DNA from: JAFGIT01 sp016929465 [NCBI: Candidatus Coatesbacteria bacterium]
Lineage (GTDB): Bacteria > B130-G9
Direction: 5' to 3'
Length of the DNA stretch: 10,262 nt
Assembly: GCA_016929465.1 (NCBI GenBank)
Contig: JAFGIT010000132.1
Location: forward strand, 1-10,262
Within the stretch, counting starts at the first letter, position 1; each line of letters opens with the position of its first letter. The notes beneath the pieces are model-generated. The model worked only from the letters and a program-made list of their open reading frames with translations. It was not told the origin of the DNA and did not search any database. A program made the position numbers and the translations under genes. Positions 1,449 through 9,146 of this stretch are shown here, piece by piece.

Positions 1449-1681
1449 TTCGGGATATTTCTTGCGATTTGGATCGCCATTAGATCGCTTGTTAGCTATC
1501 CTTCCGAGGCTTTTGGGGAAGATGCATTCGAGCGTACGAATGGCTTCACGGCCTACCTTCCATTCTATGGTCCGGTCCCTTATCACACCTTGACGCCGAA
1601 ATTATCCAAAGTTTTTTCCCTCTTGATTTTTGGTGGGGTGAGGGATTATCTTTCTGTGTGTGATTAATCGTAGAGATTAGG
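1449..1681. other. Intergenic region between ispF and the tRNA pair
   Basis: This stretch of 233 nt has no plausible gene. The antisense frames crossing it have no family features. An imperfect hairpin (ATC-CTTCC paired with GGAAGAT, one bulged C, about 1498-1523) lacks a following T-run and is not a convincing terminator for ispF. The last 60 nt are rich in T and G and contain a possible promoter for the tRNA genes, listed separately. Confidence 0.6.
1623..1652 (+). promoter_or_regulatory. Possible sigma70-type promoter for tRNA-Thr/tRNA-Tyr
   Basis: TTGATT (1623-1628) lies 18 nt before TATCTT (1647-1652); each matches the consensus at 4 of 6 positions. Transcription would begin about 20 nt before tRNA-Thr at 1682. 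A T-run just upstream of the -35 resembles the T-run before promoter P1 at 8556. The match is weak and other alignments of the -10 are possible. Confidence 0.35.
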
Positions 1682-1753
1682 GCTGGCGTAGCTCAGTGGT
1701 AGAGCAGCTGATTTGTAATCAGCCGGTCGGGGGTTCGACTCCCTTCGCCAGCT
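1682..1753 (+). tRNA. thrU: tRNA-Thr (anticodon TGT)
   Basis: The cloverleaf is complete. The acceptor GCTGGCG (1682-1688) pairs with CGCCAGC (1746-1752), with T1753 as discriminator. The D-arm contains GCTCAGTGGTAGAGC. The anticodon stem GCTGA/TCAGC encloses the loop TTTGTAA with anticodon TGT at 1714-1716 (codon ACA). The T-loop is TTCGACT, with two G-T pairs in the T-stem. No CCA is encoded, so a CCA-adding enzyme must finish the 3' end. It is the first of two tRNA genes before a terminator. The symbol is assigned by synteny with the E. coli thrU-tyrU-glyT-thrT-tufB operon, where the first tRNA has the same anticodon. Confidence 0.95.
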
Positions 1754-1784
1754 TAATCGCTGAATACGTGATGTTACGAGTGCT

Positions 1785-1866
1785 GGGGAGATACCCAAGC
1801 GGTCAAAGGGGGCAGGCTGTAAACCTGTTGGCGTAGCCTTCGGAGGTTCGAACCCTCCTCTCCCCA
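1785..1866 (+). tRNA. tyrU: tRNA-Tyr (anticodon GTA)
   Basis: This is a class II tRNA with a long variable arm, as expected for bacterial tRNA-Tyr. The acceptor GGGGAGA (1785-1791) pairs with TCTCCCC (1859-1865), with A1866 as discriminator. The anticodon stem GCAGG/CCTGT (one G-T pair) encloses CTGTAAA, giving anticodon GTA at 1819-1821 (codons TAC/TAT). The T-stem GGAGG/CCTCC is perfect around TTCGAAC. No CCA is encoded. It lies 31 nt after tRNA-Thr and is probably on the same transcript; a strong hairpin begins only 8 nt downstream. The symbol is assigned by operon synteny. Confidence 0.96.
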
Positions 1867-1873
1867 CTTAGGG

Positions 1874-1928
1874 CGCTCAGGCCGCTCGTAGAGCTACAAG
1901 GGGCTCAGCGGCCAAGAGCGTTTCTTTT
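1874..1928 (+). terminator. Rho-independent terminator (or attenuator) after tRNA-Tyr
   Basis: CGCTC (1874-1878) pairs with GAGCG (1916-1920), and GGCCGCT (1880-1886) pairs perfectly with AGCGGCC (1907-1913). The two helices are separated by an internal loop of one and two A residues. The 20-nt loop contains a small inner hairpin GTAG-AG-CTAC. TTTCTTTT (1921-1928) follows the stem at once. The 12 strong pairs plus U-run are what an intrinsic terminator needs. It ends only 35 nt before the ATG of the large secreted-protein gene, leaving little room for a separate promoter, so it may be leaky or regulated. Confidence 0.75.
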
Positions 1929-1950
1929 AGGGATCGATGCGAAACCGCAA

Positions 1951-1957
1951 AGGGAGG
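1951..1957 (+). promoter_or_regulatory. Ribosome binding site that fixes the selenoprotein start
   Basis: AGGGAGG lies 6 nt before the ATG at 1964. It sits inside the alternative frame from the ATG at 1937, which has no such site. Starting at 1964 also places a classic signal peptide at the very N-terminus, so 1964 is preferred. Confidence 0.85.
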
Positions 1958-1963
1958 AAAAAC

Positions 1964-4900
1964 ATGCATCGGAATATCATCCTGTCAATCCTGCTGGTTT
2001 TGTTCGTTTTTGCCAGCGCTTCAGCTTGGGCAGCTATGCCTAATGTCGGGGACGTGGCCCCAAACGTTCGATATCAGGACATCGACACCGAGGAGGACCT
2101 TTGGCTTTACGATGAGTATGCCGGCTCGATCGTAGTCCTCGAAATGTTCGCAGGTTATTGAGGCTACTGCAAACCTACGCTGGCAGCGTATCAACAATAT
2201 ATTTGGGATTACTTCAGACCTGACAAACCAGTTTATGTTATCGGAATGGATGTTTACCAAGGCGATTCAGCCGCATCCTGCCGTCAATACAGAGAAGATA
2301 ATGGCTATCATGTCGATTTCGGCTGGGATGAATATGAGGAAGTCGCCGCGAACTATATGGGCTCTGGCTATCCGACCTCGGTCGCGATCGACTGTCAAGA
2401 CCCGCCTATAGTCGTCTGGACTAGGTCGGGGCTGTGCGAAGACACTGACCGGACAAACTACTGCGTTCAGAACCTTCAGGAACAGATTGAGAACGACTGG
2501 TTGCCTCTCTGCAACGACGCCCCAGAGCTCTCTAACCCTGATTACGATCCTGCCTTCGGGCGGACAGACACAGATTTTAATTTCTATATCGACTATTTTG
2601 ACCCTGATGGCGACGCGCCCAATGAGATCATAGTCTTTGTGAACGGAACTCCCCATGCGATGAGCCTCGACACTGGCACCGCTGACAACGGAACTTACGT
2701 CTGGACCGGAACGATTTCCCAGGAAGGTCAGGCGCAATTCTACTTCTATTGCAGCGATGGCAGAGGCGGGGAGGATACGACCGGAAACTACAACGGACCG
2801 TATGTCTATGACGACTACGACCCGCCTTCCTCGAGCTGTTCCGCGCCGTCGAGATCGCAATCGAATACCATAACCGTTGACTACACATCGTCGGACGCGG
2901 ATTCCGGCGTCTCGAGAGTTGACCTCTGGATGCAATGCGCCGGTGGTGGCTACAGCCTGATTGATACTTCCACCAATCAGAATGGAAGCTTCAACGTGAA
3001 CTTGAATTCCGGCAATGCCGTGTATGATTTTTACACGAGAGCGACCGACTTGGTGGGCAATTTAGAGGATGCTCCCGGAACAGAGGATGCCTCCACTATC
3101 TTTGACAATACCGCTCCGGATTCATCGGTTGACCCATCGTTGGAGTACTACTGGAATAATCTACCAGTCCAAATCGACTTCGACGCAGACGATAACTTGA
3201 GCGGAGTTGATTACATTGACCTCTGGTATAGATATGAAGGTGGTTCCTGGACCGACAGCGGACTGACCGCATCCGGCGTGGCAGGCACCTTCAACTTCGA
3301 CGCTCCCCAGGGCCAGGGCGGCTACGAGTTCTACACGATCTCTACCGATCTCAATGGGAACGTTGAAACAGCGCCTACAAGCGCGCAGGCCGATGTCCTT
3401 TACGATGCGACACTGCCTGTCTCGAGCTGCTCGACCATCCCTCAGACAAACGCCGACACGATCGGCATTAGCTTCAATGCATCTGACAACGATGAGGTCG
3501 ATGATACCGATCTTTGGTATCAGTTCGAAGGCGGAGCCTGGACCTACACCGGACAGACGATGAGTGGAGTGTCCGGCACGTTCAACTATACTTTCGGCCA
3601 AGGGGATGGAGTCTATGGATTCTACACCATTTCGCACGATATGGCGACCAACGTCGAGAATCCGCCGGCTTCTGCAGACACCGCGATCAGGCTCGACCAG
3701 ACTATGCCGGAGTCGAATTGCACCGCTGATGCTCTAATCGGCGAATTGCCTTTCGACATCCAATTCACTGCGTCCGATGCCGGCACAGGCGTTGCATCGA
3801 CTAAACTCTACTACCGCTATGAAGGTGAGACTCAGTGGCAGGATGGCTACCAAACAAAGCCGGGCGAGAGCGGCCTGTTCTCACTCGATCCGACGGTCAT
3901 CACGCCCCAATACGGCGATGGCAATTACGAGCTGATGACAATTTGCACGGACAATGTGGGCAATAAGGAGGCTCCTCCCGCTGCCCCCGATCAGACAGTC
4001 ACGCTCGATACCACTCCGCCATCCTCCTTTGTGACGTGCAATTCAATGTCGCCAACATCTCCGTTGCAGTTGGATTATACCGCCAACGATTCTCTCTCGG
4101 GATTGAGCAGCGTCACCCTGTGGTATAACTTCAACGGTGGAGACTGGGTGGATTCAGGTCTGTCCGATACTTTCGGGACATCGGGCAACTCGATCAATGT
4201 CGAGAACGGATCCTTTACCTTCTCATTCCCACATGGTGATGGTGTATATGGCTTCCTGACGATTGCTGCCGACATTGCAGGCAACAATGAGACGCCAGGA
4301 ATGGCAGATTGCACCTGCTCATTCGACACGACGTCGCCCAACACGACCGGGCAGACGGACGGAGTAGTCAATGATCCGACGATACAGATCAACTATCAGT
4401 CGGTCGATGCTCTGACTGCGGTGGCGAATGTTCGTCTCTACTACAAATACACTGATCTCGAGGGTGAGGCAGACGCTACCCTCTATGACACTGGTCTCGA
4501 TGAAACGGCTCCGGCAGGCACATTTGTCTGGGCACCGGACAGAGGACCGGGCTACTACTACTTCTACTTCTCGGCGACGGATACGGCCGGGAATACGGAG
4601 GCGACAAGCGGCGCGGCCGATACGAGCTGTCTCTACGACCCGAGGCTTGCGCTCTCCAATATGACAGCGCCAGGATATGTGACCGAGCCTTCAGTCGCGA
4701 TACAATTCACGACCGACATAGGCAATGATGGCTTCGATCACGTTACCCTCTACTACCGGTTCGGCGAGACGCTGTCTGAGGCAGAGAGTGCCGATTGGAC
4801 GGCAACCGATACGATCTCCACCGAACAAGCGGGAACGCTTAATTTTGCTTGTCCAGATGGGGACGGCTTCTACCAGTTCTTTACTCGCGCGACGAGCGGA

Positions 4901-7900
4901 AGCTGGTTGCTCGAGCCTATTCCTGACGTCGCAGATGGAACCACACTGTTCGACGGGGTTGCTCCCGAGACAACCATCACGGGGCCAGCGATTTCTGCCA
5001 ATTCACAATTCAATCTGAATTACACCACGGTCGAGGCCTATGGCTTGGTCTCCATCGATATCTACTACGAGTATGGAGGCACATGGAGCCTATATACGAC
5101 AGTAACCCAGATGAATGGAGTCGTGGTCTTCAACACTCAGGGCAATGAGGGCGTATATAGCTTCTACACCATCGGAACCGACGTTGCGGGCAACGTAGAA
5201 GACGTGCCAGTGGCAGGCTATGACTGCACGGTTACGGCGGACCTGAATCCTCCGATCTCGCAGGCCAGCGTTGACACTTACGGGACCGGTTTCCCGATCG
5301 AGGTGATCTACACCGCCAGCGATACAGTGACCCCGGTCACCAATGTCTCCCTCTGGGTGAAATATGGAAACGGGCCGTGGACCAGCACCGGTCTCTCCGG
5401 TGCCGGCGATCTCGGCACTCTCTACTACACACCGGCTTCTGCTGTTGAAGGCATATACAGGTTCTATACCTCGGCAGTAGATGAGGCGGGACACTCGGAG
5501 GTATCTCCATCTTCTGATCCGGACCAGATCACAATTGACTGGACACCTCCGGTAACGACCTGCTCCTCGCCAGCGCTTTCGAGCGAGCCGGAAGTCGATG
5601 TGAGTTACACCGGGACCGACCTGCTATCTGGAATGAGCTCCGTCTCGGCGTGGATATACGCCAGCGGCGTTTGGCAGGACACCGGCTTGCTTGGCCCGGC
5701 GGACAGTGGCGTCATCACTGTTGACGTGTCCGCTTGGGGTGAGGGGTCATTCGGATTCTGCGTGCTCGGCCGAGACAATTGCGGCAACGTAGAGGGTCTC
5801 CCGGCTGTGCCGCCAACGGCGACGCTCTATGACATGACGAAACCGACCTCTGCGGCAGGATTACCCGCCGGAGGTCTTTATGCCAACACTTCACCGGTGG
5901 CGATACCCTACACTGCGAACGATGCAGCAAGCGGTGTTGCCAGCGCAAGCCTGTGGTACAAATTCAACGGTGGAGCCTGGCTCAACTCGGGCCTCTCGAA
6001 TACGCCCTCGGGATTGTCACCAATGGCTGATGGCTCATTCTCGTTCATACCGCCGAGCGGAGACGGAACATACCAATTCGCAACACGCGCACTCGACAAC
6101 GCTGGCAATCTGGAAGACCTTCCGGCGACTCCGGATGGCGGAGCTCTCGTGTTCGACCAGACAGCGCCGAGCTCGTCCGTCTCATTCGATGGGACCTATG
6201 CTATCGCGTTCCCGATTGTTCTCGATTATGTGGCTGCAGACTCCACTGCTGGTATTGACGAGGTCTCTCTATTCGTCTCAGTCGATGGTGGAGCCTATGT
6301 GGATACCAATCTAACAGGTACCGCGACAGCGGGTCAGTTCAGCTATACGCCTGACACTCTCGTCGCGGGAACGTATCGCTTCTACTCAGTTGCCAAGGAC
6401 AAGGCAGACAATGTCGAGTCCGCTGCTGCATCGGCAGATGCGACGGTAATATTCGACACGATACCTCCCGTCTCGAGCGCTAAGGTCTCCAAGGCCTACG
6501 CGAACGCTTTCCCGATCTCGGTATCGTTCACTTCAACGGATGCCGGAACTGGCCTCGTTGAGACTCGCCTCTGGGCGAGCTTCAATAACGGCGTCTATAC
6601 CGACACCGGGCTATTCTCGGCCAATAAGTCCGGCACATTCAAATATTTGCCTGGCACCTTGGCCGATGGGACGTATTCGTTCTATACCCGCTCCTCCGAC
6701 ATTGCTGGCAATGTCGAGGCTGCACCTGACGAAGCGGATGCGTCGATAGTAGTTGATAGGATTGCCCCCACGTCGTCCTGCTCGATTGACGGGACGGTGG
6801 CCAATTCATTCCCGCTTTCGATCGATTACACTAGTTCCGACAGCGGCTCTGGTGTTGATCACGTCGAGCTATTCTACAGACTGAATGGCGGTGCTTGGAC
6901 GCTAGTAACCTCGTTGACGGACGCATCCGGCACGTATGACTTCACCCCTGCTCCAATCGCCGATGGGCGATATGAGTTCTACACGAAGGCTTACGACCAC
7001 GCATCCAATGTCGAGGCGACCGCTGGCTCGGAAGACGGAGTAAGCGTTGACACGACGCCCCCAACATCGTCAGCGTTCACGCCTGAAGGGACAGTAGCCT
7101 CGCTGCCGTTCTATGTGTTGTTCAATTCACGCGACGACGCCTCCGGTGTTTCGACGACCACCCTGTGGTATAGCTTCAACGGCGGGGCGTGGTTGGATTC
7201 AGGTCTGGAGAAGAGCGGAACGGTTGGGCAATTCGAATTCTCCGCGCCTGATGGCGAGGGTACCTATCGATTCTATACAATTTGTCAGGACATGGTGGGC
7301 AACGTCGAGGCAGCGCCAAGTGTCCAGGACGGCTCGACCAGGTACCACGTGCCGAAGCCCGAGGTGGAGATCAGTGATGAATCTCTCAGCTTTGGCGAAG
7401 TGAACGTGGGCGGACAGGCGATGCAGTCTCTGTTCATAAGCAATGTCGGTGACACAAACCTGATTGTCCAGGACATCTTGAGTGACGATGCTGCTTTCAC
7501 GGTTTCGATAATGGGCACCTTTCCCAAGACGCTTGGGCCGGGAGCTGCCGTTCTCTGCACCGTCATATTCGCGCCCGATGAGGATGGCGAGTTTGATGCG
7601 GAACTATCGATAGAGACTAATGATCCTCTGTCTCCTATTATGACCGTAGCGCTGTCCGGTACTGGCATTGAGGTCGAGGGTGAGTTCGTTGCCGACATCT
7701 GGGCGAATGGACAGGTATTCGCCTTCAACGACACCCTAATGGTCGAAATGCGTATATGGAACACGGACGACCCTGTGGACATCGACCTCTCAGCGGAGTT
7801 GGTCTTCAATCTCGGTGGTGCTGATGAGCAGGTCTGGTCTGCAGTAGATGGCGGCTGGGTAGCTGGCGAAAGCCTATATGCGAGCGCAATGTCGATCGAG

Positions 7901-8437
7901 ACTGGCTACGACGAGACAACGGAGCTGCTAAGCACGACGCTGCCCTGCAAGCTGCCGATGGTGGTGAAGTCCGGTGTTTACACATTGCGTCTCTCCGCAA
8001 TGGAGGCCGGAACATCCAATCTAATAGCGGATGAGGTCGTAGAGACCTTTGTGCTGGATGGGGACCCGTTCGTTGCCATTTCGGTTGACAAGGCCACCTA
8101 TTCATCACTCGGCGATACGATCAGCATCTCGCTGAATGCACTCGTGCCCTACGGTGTGACTGCTGACTACTATGTCATCATGTTCACTCCGGATGGCTCT
8201 TTCTGGGCACCAACAGGCTTCGGGGCCGTACCGTGGGTTTCAGATGCAGTTCCACTGTTTGCAGGATTGGAGCTAGAGGGAGTCTTCACTTTCTCGGGTG
8301 TAGCCTTTGTGGCGGACCTGCCCGCCTCAGCGCCGTTTGACCTGCCGGGGAATTACACGATTTACACCGGCCTGGTCGAGCCCGGCACGCTGAGCCCGAT
8401 CTCTGATTTGGGAATGGCCACATTCACGATAGAGTAG
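1964..8437 (+). CDS. Secreted thioredoxin-like selenoprotein with 15 Ig-like repeats (TGA read as Sec66)
   Basis: I do not recognise this as a named protein. The 2157-residue frame is open except for one TGA (residue 66), proposed to encode selenocysteine. Order of parts: signal peptide 1-23 (MHR, hydrophobic core, ASAWA); thioredoxin/TlpA-like domain about 25-183, with redox motif Sec66-Gly-Tyr-Cys69-Lys-Pro after a beta strand (VVLEMFAGY) and the cis-proline loop GYPTSVAID at Pro137; a divergent Ig-like domain about 185-283; 15 Ig/FN3-like repeats 286-1794; an ASH/HYDIN-type domain about 1800-1906 (LSFGEVNVGG, FAPDEDGEFDAELSIETND, ALSGTG); two beta-rich domains about 1907-2031 and 2032-2157. 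No C-terminal sorting motif was seen. Inferred role: an exported thiol-disulfide or peroxide-handling enzyme on a long extracellular stalk. The gene lies inside a split tRNA-tuf operon. It ends with three in-frame TAGs. If the TGA is a true stop, this would be a broken gene; the intact frame and SECIS-like hairpin argue against that. Confidence 0.85.
2159..2161 (+). other. In-frame TGA proposed to encode selenocysteine (Sec66)
   Basis: The TGA follows codons for F-A-G-Y and precedes G-Y-C-K-P-T-L. In TlpA/ResA-like thioredoxin domains the motif is F-W-A-x-W-C-x-x-C-x-P, so the TGA falls exactly on the first, nucleophilic cysteine, the position where selenocysteine replaces cysteine in known redox selenoproteins. 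The neighbouring Tyr65 takes the place of the usual Trp, so reading TGA as Trp would not restore the motif. No other in-frame TGA occurs in the gene, and Trp is written TGG many times. Confidence 0.83.
2176..2190 (+). promoter_or_regulatory. Putative bacterial SECIS element
   Basis: TACGCT (2176-2181) pairs perfectly with AGCGTA (2185-2190) around the loop GGC (2182-2184). The loop begins 20 nt after the TGA. This agrees with the general bacterial SECIS model: a hairpin in the coding sequence just after UGA, roughly 16-37 nt from UGA to the apical loop, a short stable upper stem, and a G in the first two loop positions. It would be bound by SelB carrying Sec-tRNA. It also encodes part of helix 1 of the thioredoxin fold (T-L-A-A). 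Confidence 0.72.
2819..7345 (+). repeat. Fifteen tandem Ig/FN3-like protein repeats of about 100 aa
   Basis: Residues 286-1794 of the selenoprotein divide into 15 units averaging 100-101 residues. Each starts near D-x-x-x-P-x-S-S/T, passes an F/Y-T-A-S-D-x-x-S-G-V segment, an L-W-Y-x-F-N-G-G-x-W-x-D-S-G-L strand pair, a G-x-F-x-F-x-P strand, G-D-G-x-Y-x-F-Y-T, and ends in D-x-A-G-N-V-E-x-A-P. Units 5, 11 and 15 are closest to this consensus; 6 and 7 are the most divergent (longer, with insertions around the L-Y-Y strand, and unit 7 lacks the A-G-N motif). The DNA copies are diverged, so this is not a recent expansion. Such arrays form extended beta-sandwich stalks on the outside of cells. Confidence 0.88.
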
Positions 8438-8470
8438 TAGTAGGCTAATTTGTAAGACTTCATGGAAATT

Positions 8471-8507
8471 CGGGCGCCTCGTTCTGCGGGGCGCCCGCTC
8501 CATTTTT
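8471..8507 (+). terminator. Rho-independent terminator of the selenoprotein gene
   Basis: CGGGCGCC (8471-8478) pairs perfectly with GGCGCCCG (8490-8497). The stem can extend inward by a T-G and a C-G pair, leaving a 7-nt loop. The sequence CTCCA and a run of five T (8503-8507) follow. It starts 34 nt after the TAG at 8437. The T-run is five bases from the stem, so efficiency is uncertain. Confidence 0.78.
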
Positions 8508-8555
8508 ATCGACTCACTCTTTTGGAACTCTGAAGGACGTGATGTGTTTTTTTCC

Positions 8556-8583
8556 TTGACACGATCCAAAAAGCGAGTATTGT
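8556..8583 (+). promoter_or_regulatory. Promoter P1 of the tRNA-Gly/tRNA-Thr/tuf unit
   Basis: A perfect -35 TTGACA (8556-8561) is followed after 16 nt by TATTGT (8578-8583), 4 of 6 matches to TATAAT. A T-run lies directly upstream. The spacer contains CAAAAAG, shared with P2. It follows the selenoprotein terminator and would drive the downstream tRNA and tuf genes. Confidence 0.6.
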
Positions 8584-8713
8584 TCTTGGCTCGCTTTAGC
8601 AACGGATGTTTGTGGTTAGTCCTCGTATAAGGGCTGCCTTGGAAGATTTTCAGCGCAGAGTCGCGGTGACAAGGACACTTGTGTTCTTGTTGAGCACATG
8701 TGTTAAAAGGCTG

Positions 8714-8743
8714 TTGACACTGAGCAAAAAGAGCTTATATTGT
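8714..8743 (+). promoter_or_regulatory. Promoter P2 of the tRNA-Gly/tRNA-Thr/tuf unit
   Basis: A perfect -35 TTGACA (8714-8719) is followed after 16 nt by TATATT (8736-8741), 5 of 6 matches; the overlapping TATTGT (8738-8743), the same hexamer as in P1, has an 18-nt spacer. This is the best promoter in the window. Transcription would begin near 8750, about 120 nt before tRNA-Gly. Confidence 0.68.
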
Positions 8744-8867
8744 CTTTCAAAGAAGAGGAATCAATTCTCGTCAATTATGTGCTGGGGCTTGCTGCCTGGC
8801 CACCAGAAGGGTTTTTTCGCGCCTACCGAAAGGTGGGAGTTTTACTCCGTTTTGATGAGGGATTACG

Positions 8868-8941
8868 GCGGGAATAGCTCAGTTGGCTAGAGCATCAGCC
8901 TTCCAAGCTGAGGGTCGCGGGTTCGAATCCCGTTTCCCGCT
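8868..8941 (+). tRNA. glyT: tRNA-Gly (anticodon TCC)
   Basis: The acceptor GCGGGAA (8868-8874) pairs with TTCCCGC (8934-8940), discriminator T8941. The D-arm is GCTCAGTTGGCTAGAGC. The anticodon stem TCAGC/GCTGA encloses CTTCCAA with anticodon TCC at 8902-8904 (codons GGA/GGG). The T-arm is CGGG-TTCGAAT-CCCG. No CCA is encoded. It begins the distal half of the split tRNA-tuf operon; the symbol is by synteny with E. coli, whose glyT has the same anticodon. Confidence 0.96.
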
Positions 8942-8964
8942 TTGTCAACAGAAATACAATATCT

Positions 8965-9037
8965 GCCCACGTAGCTCAGCAGGTTGAGCACTTCCTTGGT
9001 AAGGAAGAGGACACCGGTTCAAATCCGGTCGTGGGCT
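8965..9037 (+). tRNA. thrT: tRNA-Thr (anticodon GGT)
   Basis: The acceptor GCCCACG (8965-8971) pairs with CGTGGGC (9030-9036), discriminator T9037. The anticodon stem CTTCC/GGAAG encloses TTGGTAA with anticodon GGT at 8998-9000 (codons ACC/ACT). The T-arm is CCGG-TTCAAAT-CCGG. No CCA is encoded. It lies 23 nt after tRNA-Gly and 109 nt before tuf, and complements the tRNA-Thr(TGT) at 1682. The symbol is by synteny with E. coli thrT. Confidence 0.96.
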
Positions 9038-9046
9038 TTTTATAAT
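9018..9046 (+). promoter_or_regulatory. Possible internal promoter for tuf
   Basis: A perfect -10 hexamer TATAAT (9041-9046) lies just after tRNA-Thr. At 17 nt upstream is TTCAAA (9018-9023, 4 of 6 to TTGACA), which is part of the T-loop of tRNA-Thr. The overlap may be coincidence in an AT-rich spacer. Confidence 0.3.
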
Positions 9047-9134
9047 ATGCATGAATATATACAGCAGATTGATATGGACGATAGGGACGGAGCTTCCGGT
9101 AGTCTGGTTGGATTCTGTCCAGTGATCGCATTTT

Positions 9135-9140
9135 AGGAGG
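9135..9140 (+). promoter_or_regulatory. Ribosome binding site of tuf
   Basis: A full AGGAGG lies 6 nt before the ATG at 9147, as expected for one of the most highly expressed genes. A GTG directly before the ATG is in frame, but its spacing is shorter and EF-Tu proteins normally begin M-A-K. Confidence 0.85.
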
Positions 9141-9146
9141 TTAGTG

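Follow-up and report, generated by a model that had tools for sequence, protein, structure and literature searches.

A predicted giant selenoprotein with a TlpA/ResA-like redox head on a stalk of Ig-like repeats in a Candidatus Coatesbacteria genome

Contig JAFGIT010000132.1 of a Candidatus Coatesbacteria genome, the whole of which (10,262 nucleotides) is the window analyzed here, carries a very long reading frame that is interrupted once by a TGA codon, and the question raised by this locus is whether that TGA is read as a stop or as selenocysteine (Sec). An earlier note made from the letters of this DNA had proposed the latter and described the product as a giant secreted selenoprotein. Translation bears out the coordinates of that proposal: the frame opens with an ATG at 1964 behind a ribosome-binding site, meets a single in-frame TGA at residue 66 (2159-2161), and then remains open to a TAG at 8435-8437, the part from the ATG at 2246 onward forming an open frame of 2063 amino acids (aa). 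A signal peptide at its start is recognizable by eye. The protein has a mass of about 227 kDa from residue 25 on (computed with Cys in place of Sec), a pI of 4.05, and 26 Cys-or-Sec positions over its whole length. As judged from the sequence comparisons set out below, the TGA at 2159 very probably encodes Sec, and we consider it highly likely that the gene as a whole encodes an exported selenoprotein in which a Sec66-Cys69 reductase is carried on a stalk of immunoglobulin (Ig)-like repeats.

The window is one contig (C261) of a draft genome, G000, that comprises 3.19 Mb in 423 contigs and is 86% complete. We compared it with three relatives of the same family (G001, G002, and G003), and all counts of four family genomes given here include G000 itself. 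The earlier note had named selA, selB, selC, and selD as genes to look for in the same genome, and all four are present in this draft. The tRNA-Sec(UCA) reaches 73.1 bits, the gathering score being 47; SelB scores 353.8 against 242, and SelA 560.5 against 268. SelD scores 356.7 against 125 and is of the Sec type, with a Sec codon of its own (GAGUAAK). The tRNA-Sec is found in all four family genomes. By eye, the SelD gene (L049, G000 C277:3018-3944) has a hairpin-like sequence, AGGUC-CGGGU-GACCU, after its TGA.

A lone TGA in an otherwise open frame of 2157 codons would look identical if the lineage as a whole used TGA as a sense codon for some other residue, for instance Trp or Gly, in which case there would be no selenoprotein. 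However, TGA terminates 72 of 177 ATG frames that do not overlap and span 250 aa or more, sampled from 45 G000 loci (a non-random set, chosen for other reasons), indicating that it is a normal stop in G000, and we rejected genome-wide reassignment on this ground. The presence of tRNA-Sec(UCA), SelA, SelB, and SelD also argues against reassignment, as do the homologues, most of which, among those examined, have Cys at the Sec position (same-genome homologues read WATWCGPC and alike). Reassignment of TGA thus seems scarcely credible. The Cys or Sec that the earlier note expected at this position in homologues is there except in two divergent G000 paralogues, on contigs C90 and C269, which lack the first Cys. 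These paralogues (L117, G000 C90:1668-2099; L144, G000 C269:1663-2052) lie in open frames of more than 700 aa, and their TlpA-like domains, which read AVSDSRC and ETTSSRC, are apparently redox-dead.

Alternatively, the TGA could be a true stop, produced by pseudogene formation or an assembly error, with translation restarting at the downstream ATG that opens the 2063-aa frame. This explanation gains some weight from the draft state of the assemblies and from a frame change that divides the G001 orthologue farther along the gene. Against it, an orthologue with TGA at the same codon is present in all four family genomes, which contradicts a one-off base error, and the residues flanking the TGA and the hairpin that follows it have been kept. 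The heads of the relatives are 70-81% identical to that of the window protein; U66 and C69 are retained while their neighbors vary, the G001 motif being U-S-H-C, and the signal peptide and UxxC motif, which lie on either side of the TGA, are both conserved as protein in the family. Since the combination of TGA and hairpin also recurs in at least 12 genomes outside the family, we regard a true stop as very improbable.

All four family sequences contain, downstream of the TGA, CUACGCU-GGN-NGCGUAUC (stem UACGCU-GGN-NGCGUA), which resembles a bacterial selenocysteine insertion sequence (bSECIS). The published bSECIS model has a 3-9 nt loop, a 4-16 bp stem, G in the first two loop positions, and a spacing of 16-37 nt (PMC13188914), and the window hairpin, with 6 bp, a GGC loop, and a spacing of 20 nt, lies within this geometry. 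So do 375 of the 2138 codon positions of the giant gene when at least 6 pairs are required, and 97 of 2138 fit a narrower geometry; geometry alone is therefore weak evidence. Folding energy counts against the hairpin. The screening limit of the model is -7.5 kcal/mol or lower (PMC13188914), and the window (-7.1 on 42-45 nt) and G001 (-6.9) fall short of it by 0.4-0.6 kcal/mol; G002 and G003 lie within it, G002 through another fold, which is its lowest-energy one. The energy of the window sequence is ordinary (z of -0.13 on 42 nt, with 80 of 200 shuffles folding as well), and three of the four family sequences do not clearly outperform shuffles. We therefore discarded hairpin energy as evidence and placed weight instead on codon conservation, on covariation, and on a control comparison with Cys-containing heads.

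In the four-way aligned stretch of approximately 1520 codons, 683 codons (Met and Trp excluded) specify the same residue in all sequences, and at 111 of these (16%) the codon choice is shared as well. The longest uninterrupted stretch of unchanged codons, 7 with the TGA counted, lies at residues 63-76 over the hairpin, and the next longest has 3. Covariation was examined in 18 of the 19 Sec-head hairpins described below, the G053 hairpin being left out because of its 6-nt loop. The 8-pair stem has changes on both sides in all 8 pairs (5.8 in shuffles, of which 5 of 500 reach 8), 84.7% of its cells are paired (58.6% in shuffles, at most 48.6% in slid versions), and its covariation score is 0.658 (0.194 in shuffles, at most 0.132 in slid versions). 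The number of further pair types, 16, is reached by 78 of 500 shuffles and is hence not special. The register was set by the loop, and the hairpin of the window family begins one codon later than the others, so the structure is somewhat favored in this test. In the control, a hairpin with at least 6 pairs, a 3-6 nt loop, and a spacing of 16-26 nt follows 16 of 19 Sec heads as compared with 4 of 38 Cys heads, the latter being the subset of Cys matches with loci at hand (Fisher p 6e-8, relatedness ignored). One Cys head, FATWCPGC at L062 (G028 C118:5601-6023), groups with Sec heads in the tree described below, and its Cys codon is followed at 20 nt by a hairpin of 6 pairs, CGAGGC-GCAGA-GCCTCG. 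This hairpin is possibly a relic of a change from Sec to Cys, or it may be due to chance, as 4 of the 38 Cys heads have one.

Given a TGA that very probably encodes Sec, what kind of domain carries it? The motif U66-G-Y-C69-K-P occupies an active-site position, with the Sec column meeting the first Cys of CxxC in three profile alignments (2ls5 and the ResA chains 4nmu and 3c71), and the Pro of the GYPT loop meets the cis-Pro-loop Pro in the two ResA chains. The earlier claim that the TGA falls on the first redox position and is followed by a correctly placed cis-Pro loop therefore agrees with the alignments. ResA/TlpA chains are among the best PDB profile matches, both the (C/U)xxC pair and the cis-Pro of a ResA/TlpA-like redox domain are present, and PF00578 (AhpC-TSA) matches the window protein with 27.4 bits against a curated cut-off of 26. 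These profile matches support a head of the TlpA/ResA (AhpC-TSA) kind rather than a plain thioredoxin, so that the UxxC motif and cis-Pro of the thioredoxin-like domain first proposed are upheld while its type is refined. Some results pull the other way. The G002 orthologue has no PF00578 match at E <= 0.01, and the NCBIfam ResA model NF002854, with its cut-off of 170 bits, is matched with 27.1 bits by the window protein and 40.2 bits by that of G002. An AlphaFold model of the head, built from three sequences, was poor, with a mean predicted local distance difference test (pLDDT) score of 44; it was not used, and the fold assignment therefore rests on sequence profiles.

The head could instead belong to a peroxidase or oxidant sensor (AhpC/Prx-like), or to a disulfide-forming oxidase, in which case the protein would still be a selenoprotein but not a TlpA/ResA-type reductase. 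The Pfam name AhpC/TSA is consistent with this explanation, as are the peroxiredoxin chains among the weaker PDB profile matches and the four further head cysteines, C144, C158, C167, and C183, which are invariant in the family and are perhaps structural disulfides. However, Sec peroxiredoxins are listed with the motif TxxU (PMC13188914), whereas the head has UxxC together with a cis-Pro loop. In addition, the best-named profile matches are ResA, and electron carriers of the CcdA/DsbD type are present, the corresponding membrane domain having two matches in each of the four family genomes. We consider a peroxidase, oxidant sensor, or oxidase unlikely, and we favor a TlpA/ResA-type reductase. 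The features of the gene and its immediate surroundings are collected in the table.

Table. Predicted features of the giant selenoprotein gene and its flanks (positions in the window)
Feature	Position	Strand	Basis
tRNA-Thr(TGT) (1681-1754) and tRNA-Tyr(GTA) (1785-1867), directly upstream of giant gene	1681..1867	+	ARAGORN
Ribosome-binding site GGAGG	1953..1957	+	sequence
Putative giant selenoprotein gene, 2157 residues with TGA2159 as Sec, stop TAG 8435-8437	1964..8437	+	frame translation
Predicted signal peptide, residues 1-24 (MHRN...ASAWA/A), no lipobox Cys	1964..2035	+	translation, by eye
TlpA/ResA-like (AhpC-TSA) redox head, residues 25-183	2036..2512	+	PF00578 and profile match to PDB ResA chains
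TGA, very probably Sec66, first UxxC position	2159..2161	+	same codon in 4/4 family genomes (own included)
Predicted resolving Cys69 of UxxC	2168..2170	+	invariant over 12 Sec heads, as just one other column is
bSECIS-like hairpin UACGCU-GGC-AGCGUA, 20 nt after UGA	2176..2190	+	geometry, codon conservation, covariation across heads
Pro137 of GYPT loop, cis-Pro position	2372..2374	+	profile alignments
15 Ig-like (Big_13-type) repeats, residues 282-1793	2807..7342	+	Pfam and repeat HMM
ASH/HYDIN-like, choice-of-anchor D domain, residues 1799-1899	7358..7660	+	Pfam, NCBIfam
Two-module C-terminal region, common to many other G000 proteins	7661..8434	+	genome matches
Terminator-like hairpin, 12 pairs, 3' of giant gene	8471..8497	+	sequence

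The head accounts for about one fourteenth of the 2157-aa protein. It is followed by a linker region with a weak Ig-like match and then by 15 Ig-like units of 96-108 aa each, with a weak 16th at residues 204-268. The repeat hidden Markov model (HMM) was built from those 15 units, so its unit scores are circular; the Pfam Big_13 match is independent and scores 80.8 bits against a cut-off of 27. The domain behind the repeats passes as HYDIN-like (36.3 against 25.5) and as choice-of-anchor D (48.7 against 45) and is below the cut-off for ASH itself (25.4 against 27). The length and the 15 repeats given in the earlier note stand, together with a domain of the ASH/choice-of-anchor D type. The tail, taken as the last 258 residues, has 45 matching places in G000 (window included) and 19, 24, and 7 in G001, G002, and G003, respectively. 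Other giants (1347-3552 aa) carry it C-terminally, and in many other proteins it lies, by eye, directly behind the signal peptide; tail-bearing G000 loci lie on contigs C378, C301, C171, C254, C18, and others (L107-L111). We rejected the tail as a dedicated C-terminal sorting signal, since of 44 inspected rows only 9 end within 2 aa of the stop (3 other rows were unjudgeable, and in 2 the match extends past a stop), and many of the rest place it, by eye, right after a signal peptide. It is a common module and not a sorting tail.

Two of the other G000 giants, L107 and L109, likewise combine Big_13 repeats, an ASH domain, and the tail, and they begin with different N-terminal parts, in L109 with FG-GAP; a peptidase head considered for L107 was dropped, as it had no Pfam support. 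Given that giants of the same genome have the same stalk and tail and different N-terminal parts, the window protein looks like a redox head placed on the standard scaffold of its lineage. This arrangement would also suit an adhesin or S-layer-like protein in which the Sec head is a mere module whose redox chemistry serves the folding or cross-linking of the protein itself, and the 15 Ig-like repeats, the low pI, and the 26 Cys-or-Sec positions fit such a role. Yet U and C of the head, and almost always its cis-Pro, are retained while the rest diverges, as would be expected for catalysis on other molecules, and the same kind of head occurs on smaller proteins with unrelated tails. An adhesin of this sort therefore appears doubtful to us, and a reductase acting on other molecules remains our preferred explanation.

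The description of the protein as secreted draws its only support from the signal peptide recognized by eye. The type IX secretion system (T9SS) domain Por_Secre_tail has no match in the window protein, none was found in G000, and one of the four family genomes has a single match; no anchor was found in the giant protein. Outside the cytoplasm, domains of the ResA/TlpA type use electrons supplied by CcdA/DsbD to reduce disulfides. Sec is a costly residue that oxidizes readily, and at the attacking position it is expected to give a faster reductase that is harder to inactivate. For the window protein, we propose that SelB and Sec-tRNA would bind the hairpin and insert Sec at the UGA, and that the signal peptide would take the protein out of the cytoplasm. 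There, Sec66 and Cys69 would act as a thiol-disulfide (selenylsulfide) reductase, held out on the stalk of 15 Ig-like domains, while the ASH and C-terminal modules may tether the protein to partners or the envelope. Reducing power would probably cross the inner membrane through transporters of the CcdA/DsbD type.

Heads of this kind are not confined to the window family. A profile of 9 heads (4 from the family, 2 Sec heads from other genomes, and 3 Cys heads) was searched against 386 genomes, and at least 8 genomes outside the family (G004, G053, G057, G079, G104, G120, G200, and G221) have a UxxC head on an in-frame TGA. The phylum of G079, represented by 8 genomes, gives 29 head matches at 1e-15, of which 9 contain one TGA (in 6 of the 8 genomes) and 20 contain none; all 9 TGA heads have UxxC at the TGA and a GGC loop 17 nt downstream closed by 4 to 8 pairs. 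Altogether, we count at least 19 Sec heads in at least 16 genomes and at least 3 phyla, as defined by kinship labels, and at least 15 of these heads are in at least 12 genomes outside the family (those named above and G386, G387, G388, and G390). The spacing between UGA and hairpin is 16-20 nt over the 19 heads. Heads in which TGA is the terminal stop only (G132, G173, G227, and G000 C304) were set aside, those of G132, G173, and G227 being Cys heads among 11 loci inspected. We also dropped L159, which has an unrelated pattern (RGRRUPGC), and rows for L038, L057, and L076 that came from other frames.

Twelve of the 15 outside heads are on open frames of 496-818 aa; one frame has 354 aa, one has 153 aa (G200, L151), and one is cut by the contig end (G104, L152). 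By eye, 13 of the 15 have a signal-peptide-like N-terminus, the start being unclear in G120 and cut in G200. A Pfam/NCBIfam scan of 8 of the 15 outside proteins identified a T9SS sorting domain in the tails of G004 and G057, FlgD-Ig in G120, and, below the cut-off, a dockerin in G079, while no tail domain scored above the cut-off in G053, G104, G200, and G221. The head lies behind the signal peptide in the window family and in most of the others; the head of G057 comes after LVIVD repeats and an ASH-like domain. On contig C112 of G386, two Sec-TlpA genes (L160 and L166) lie about 2 kb apart, and their C-termini resemble, by eye, the dockerin-like end of the G079 protein.

In a tree built from 38 heads, namely 12 of the 19 that carry Sec and 26 others, the window family is on its own long branch and does not form one clade with the outside Sec-TlpA proteins. 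The Sec label changes 4 times on this tree, with at least 2 changes forced by well-supported branches; Sec has therefore arisen, or given way to Cys, at least twice, and the tree is silent on which. Since Sec-TlpA heads are found on smaller proteins in other phyla, the window protein belongs to a wider set, of which it is the largest member encountered here. We lean toward the view that in at least three phylum-level groups, extracytoplasmic selenium redox chemistry is carried out by modular exported TlpA-type Sec heads (UxxC, with a hairpin 16-20 nt after the UGA) that are joined to interchangeable modules, among them T9SS tails, dockerin-like and FlgD-Ig domains, and the 15-Ig stalk; Sec would have been acquired or lost on at least two occasions, and the 227-kDa protein of the window would be the extreme case.

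How much of this is already known? An extracytoplasmic location of the DsbG-like protein, the multiheme cytochrome ExtKL, the MtrB/PioB barrel, and the TonB-dependent receptor can be taken from their names. All four are included in a published list of selenoproteins (PMC13188914 Table 1); like the window protein they would place Sec outside the cytoplasm, but their folds are others, and none in that table is by name a TlpA head on an Ig stalk. Two UxxC selenoprotein families are closer: the 'Prx-like thiol:disulfide oxidoreductase' (PF00578) and the 'thiol-disulfide isomerase-like' (cd02966) proteins (PMC13188914 Table 1; PMC1088965). They share with the giant an AhpC-TSA/TlpA-type fold by profile, the UxxC motif, and an in-frame UGA with a bSECIS (PMC13188914). 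The table gives families and motifs and omits size and architecture, and in the giant the head is a small fraction of the protein; because the table is without sizes, a giant member of these listed families is conceivable (PMC13188914). ResA, TlpA, and StoA (PDB 1st9, 4nmu, 1jfu, and 3erw) share the TlpA-like domain by profile, and the redox pair column and cis-Pro loop match in the ResA alignments, whereas the giant has Sec for the first Cys, a giant stalk, and a score below the NCBIfam ResA cut-off. NF041054, a 354-position model named ResA-like WAxxUGC motif-containing protein, is by name a Sec-containing ResA-like protein, as the giant is predicted to be; it matches G057 (28.4 bits) and G004 (23.2 bits) weakly against 300, and the window protein is not matched at E <= 0.1. 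The outside Sec-TlpA proteins share the TlpA-like head, UxxC, and TGA with hairpin, and they differ in their tails, in their size (153-818 aa), and in tree placement.

Selenoproteins with this kind of catalytic head have thus been described before, and export of selenoproteins is not in itself new. What appears to be new is the 227-kDa stalked architecture and the multi-phylum modular Sec-TlpA class: a non-exhaustive literature search of titles and abstract starts returned no Ig-stalked or giant modular selenoprotein and no multi-phylum Sec-TlpA class, which is consistent with the earlier statement that no selenoprotein of this architecture or size has been described. A conserved Sec head on an apparently exported 2157-aa scaffold, with counterparts in other phyla, points to uncultured bacteria that carry out a Sec-dependent redox task extracellularly or in their envelope. 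Should gene-calling programs truncate such frames at the TGA, as the earlier note expects for this one, the signal peptide and the active site would be lost and the class under-counted. The giant protein offers a clear test case, with one peptide, one residue, and one hairpin.

The gene lies between tRNA genes. It is flanked by tRNA-Thr/tRNA-Tyr and tRNA-Gly/tRNA-Thr (1681-9144), with an EF-Tu gene, named by eye, after them. G001 and G002 have these four tRNAs around the gene, and G003 has the upstream pair, its contig end falling inside the gene; the tRNA-Thr/tRNA-Tyr pair precedes the orthologues at L045, L046, and L047. No sigma-70-like promoter was found in 1400-2300, where 0.8 would be expected by chance, and promoter-like sites lie ahead of tRNA-Gly, the best of them matching 11 of 12 positions at 8714-8741. 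Given that no promoter was found in that interval and that a terminator-like hairpin follows the gene, the giant gene is perhaps transcribed together with the pair of tRNAs ahead of it and separately from tuf. The G001 orthologue (G001 C46, L047, around 9000 on the reverse strand) is open in two frames, as by a frame change that may be real or an assembly error. G002 has a further insertion between the tRNAs, a 749-aa FG-GAP protein bearing the same tail (L046 8979-11225).

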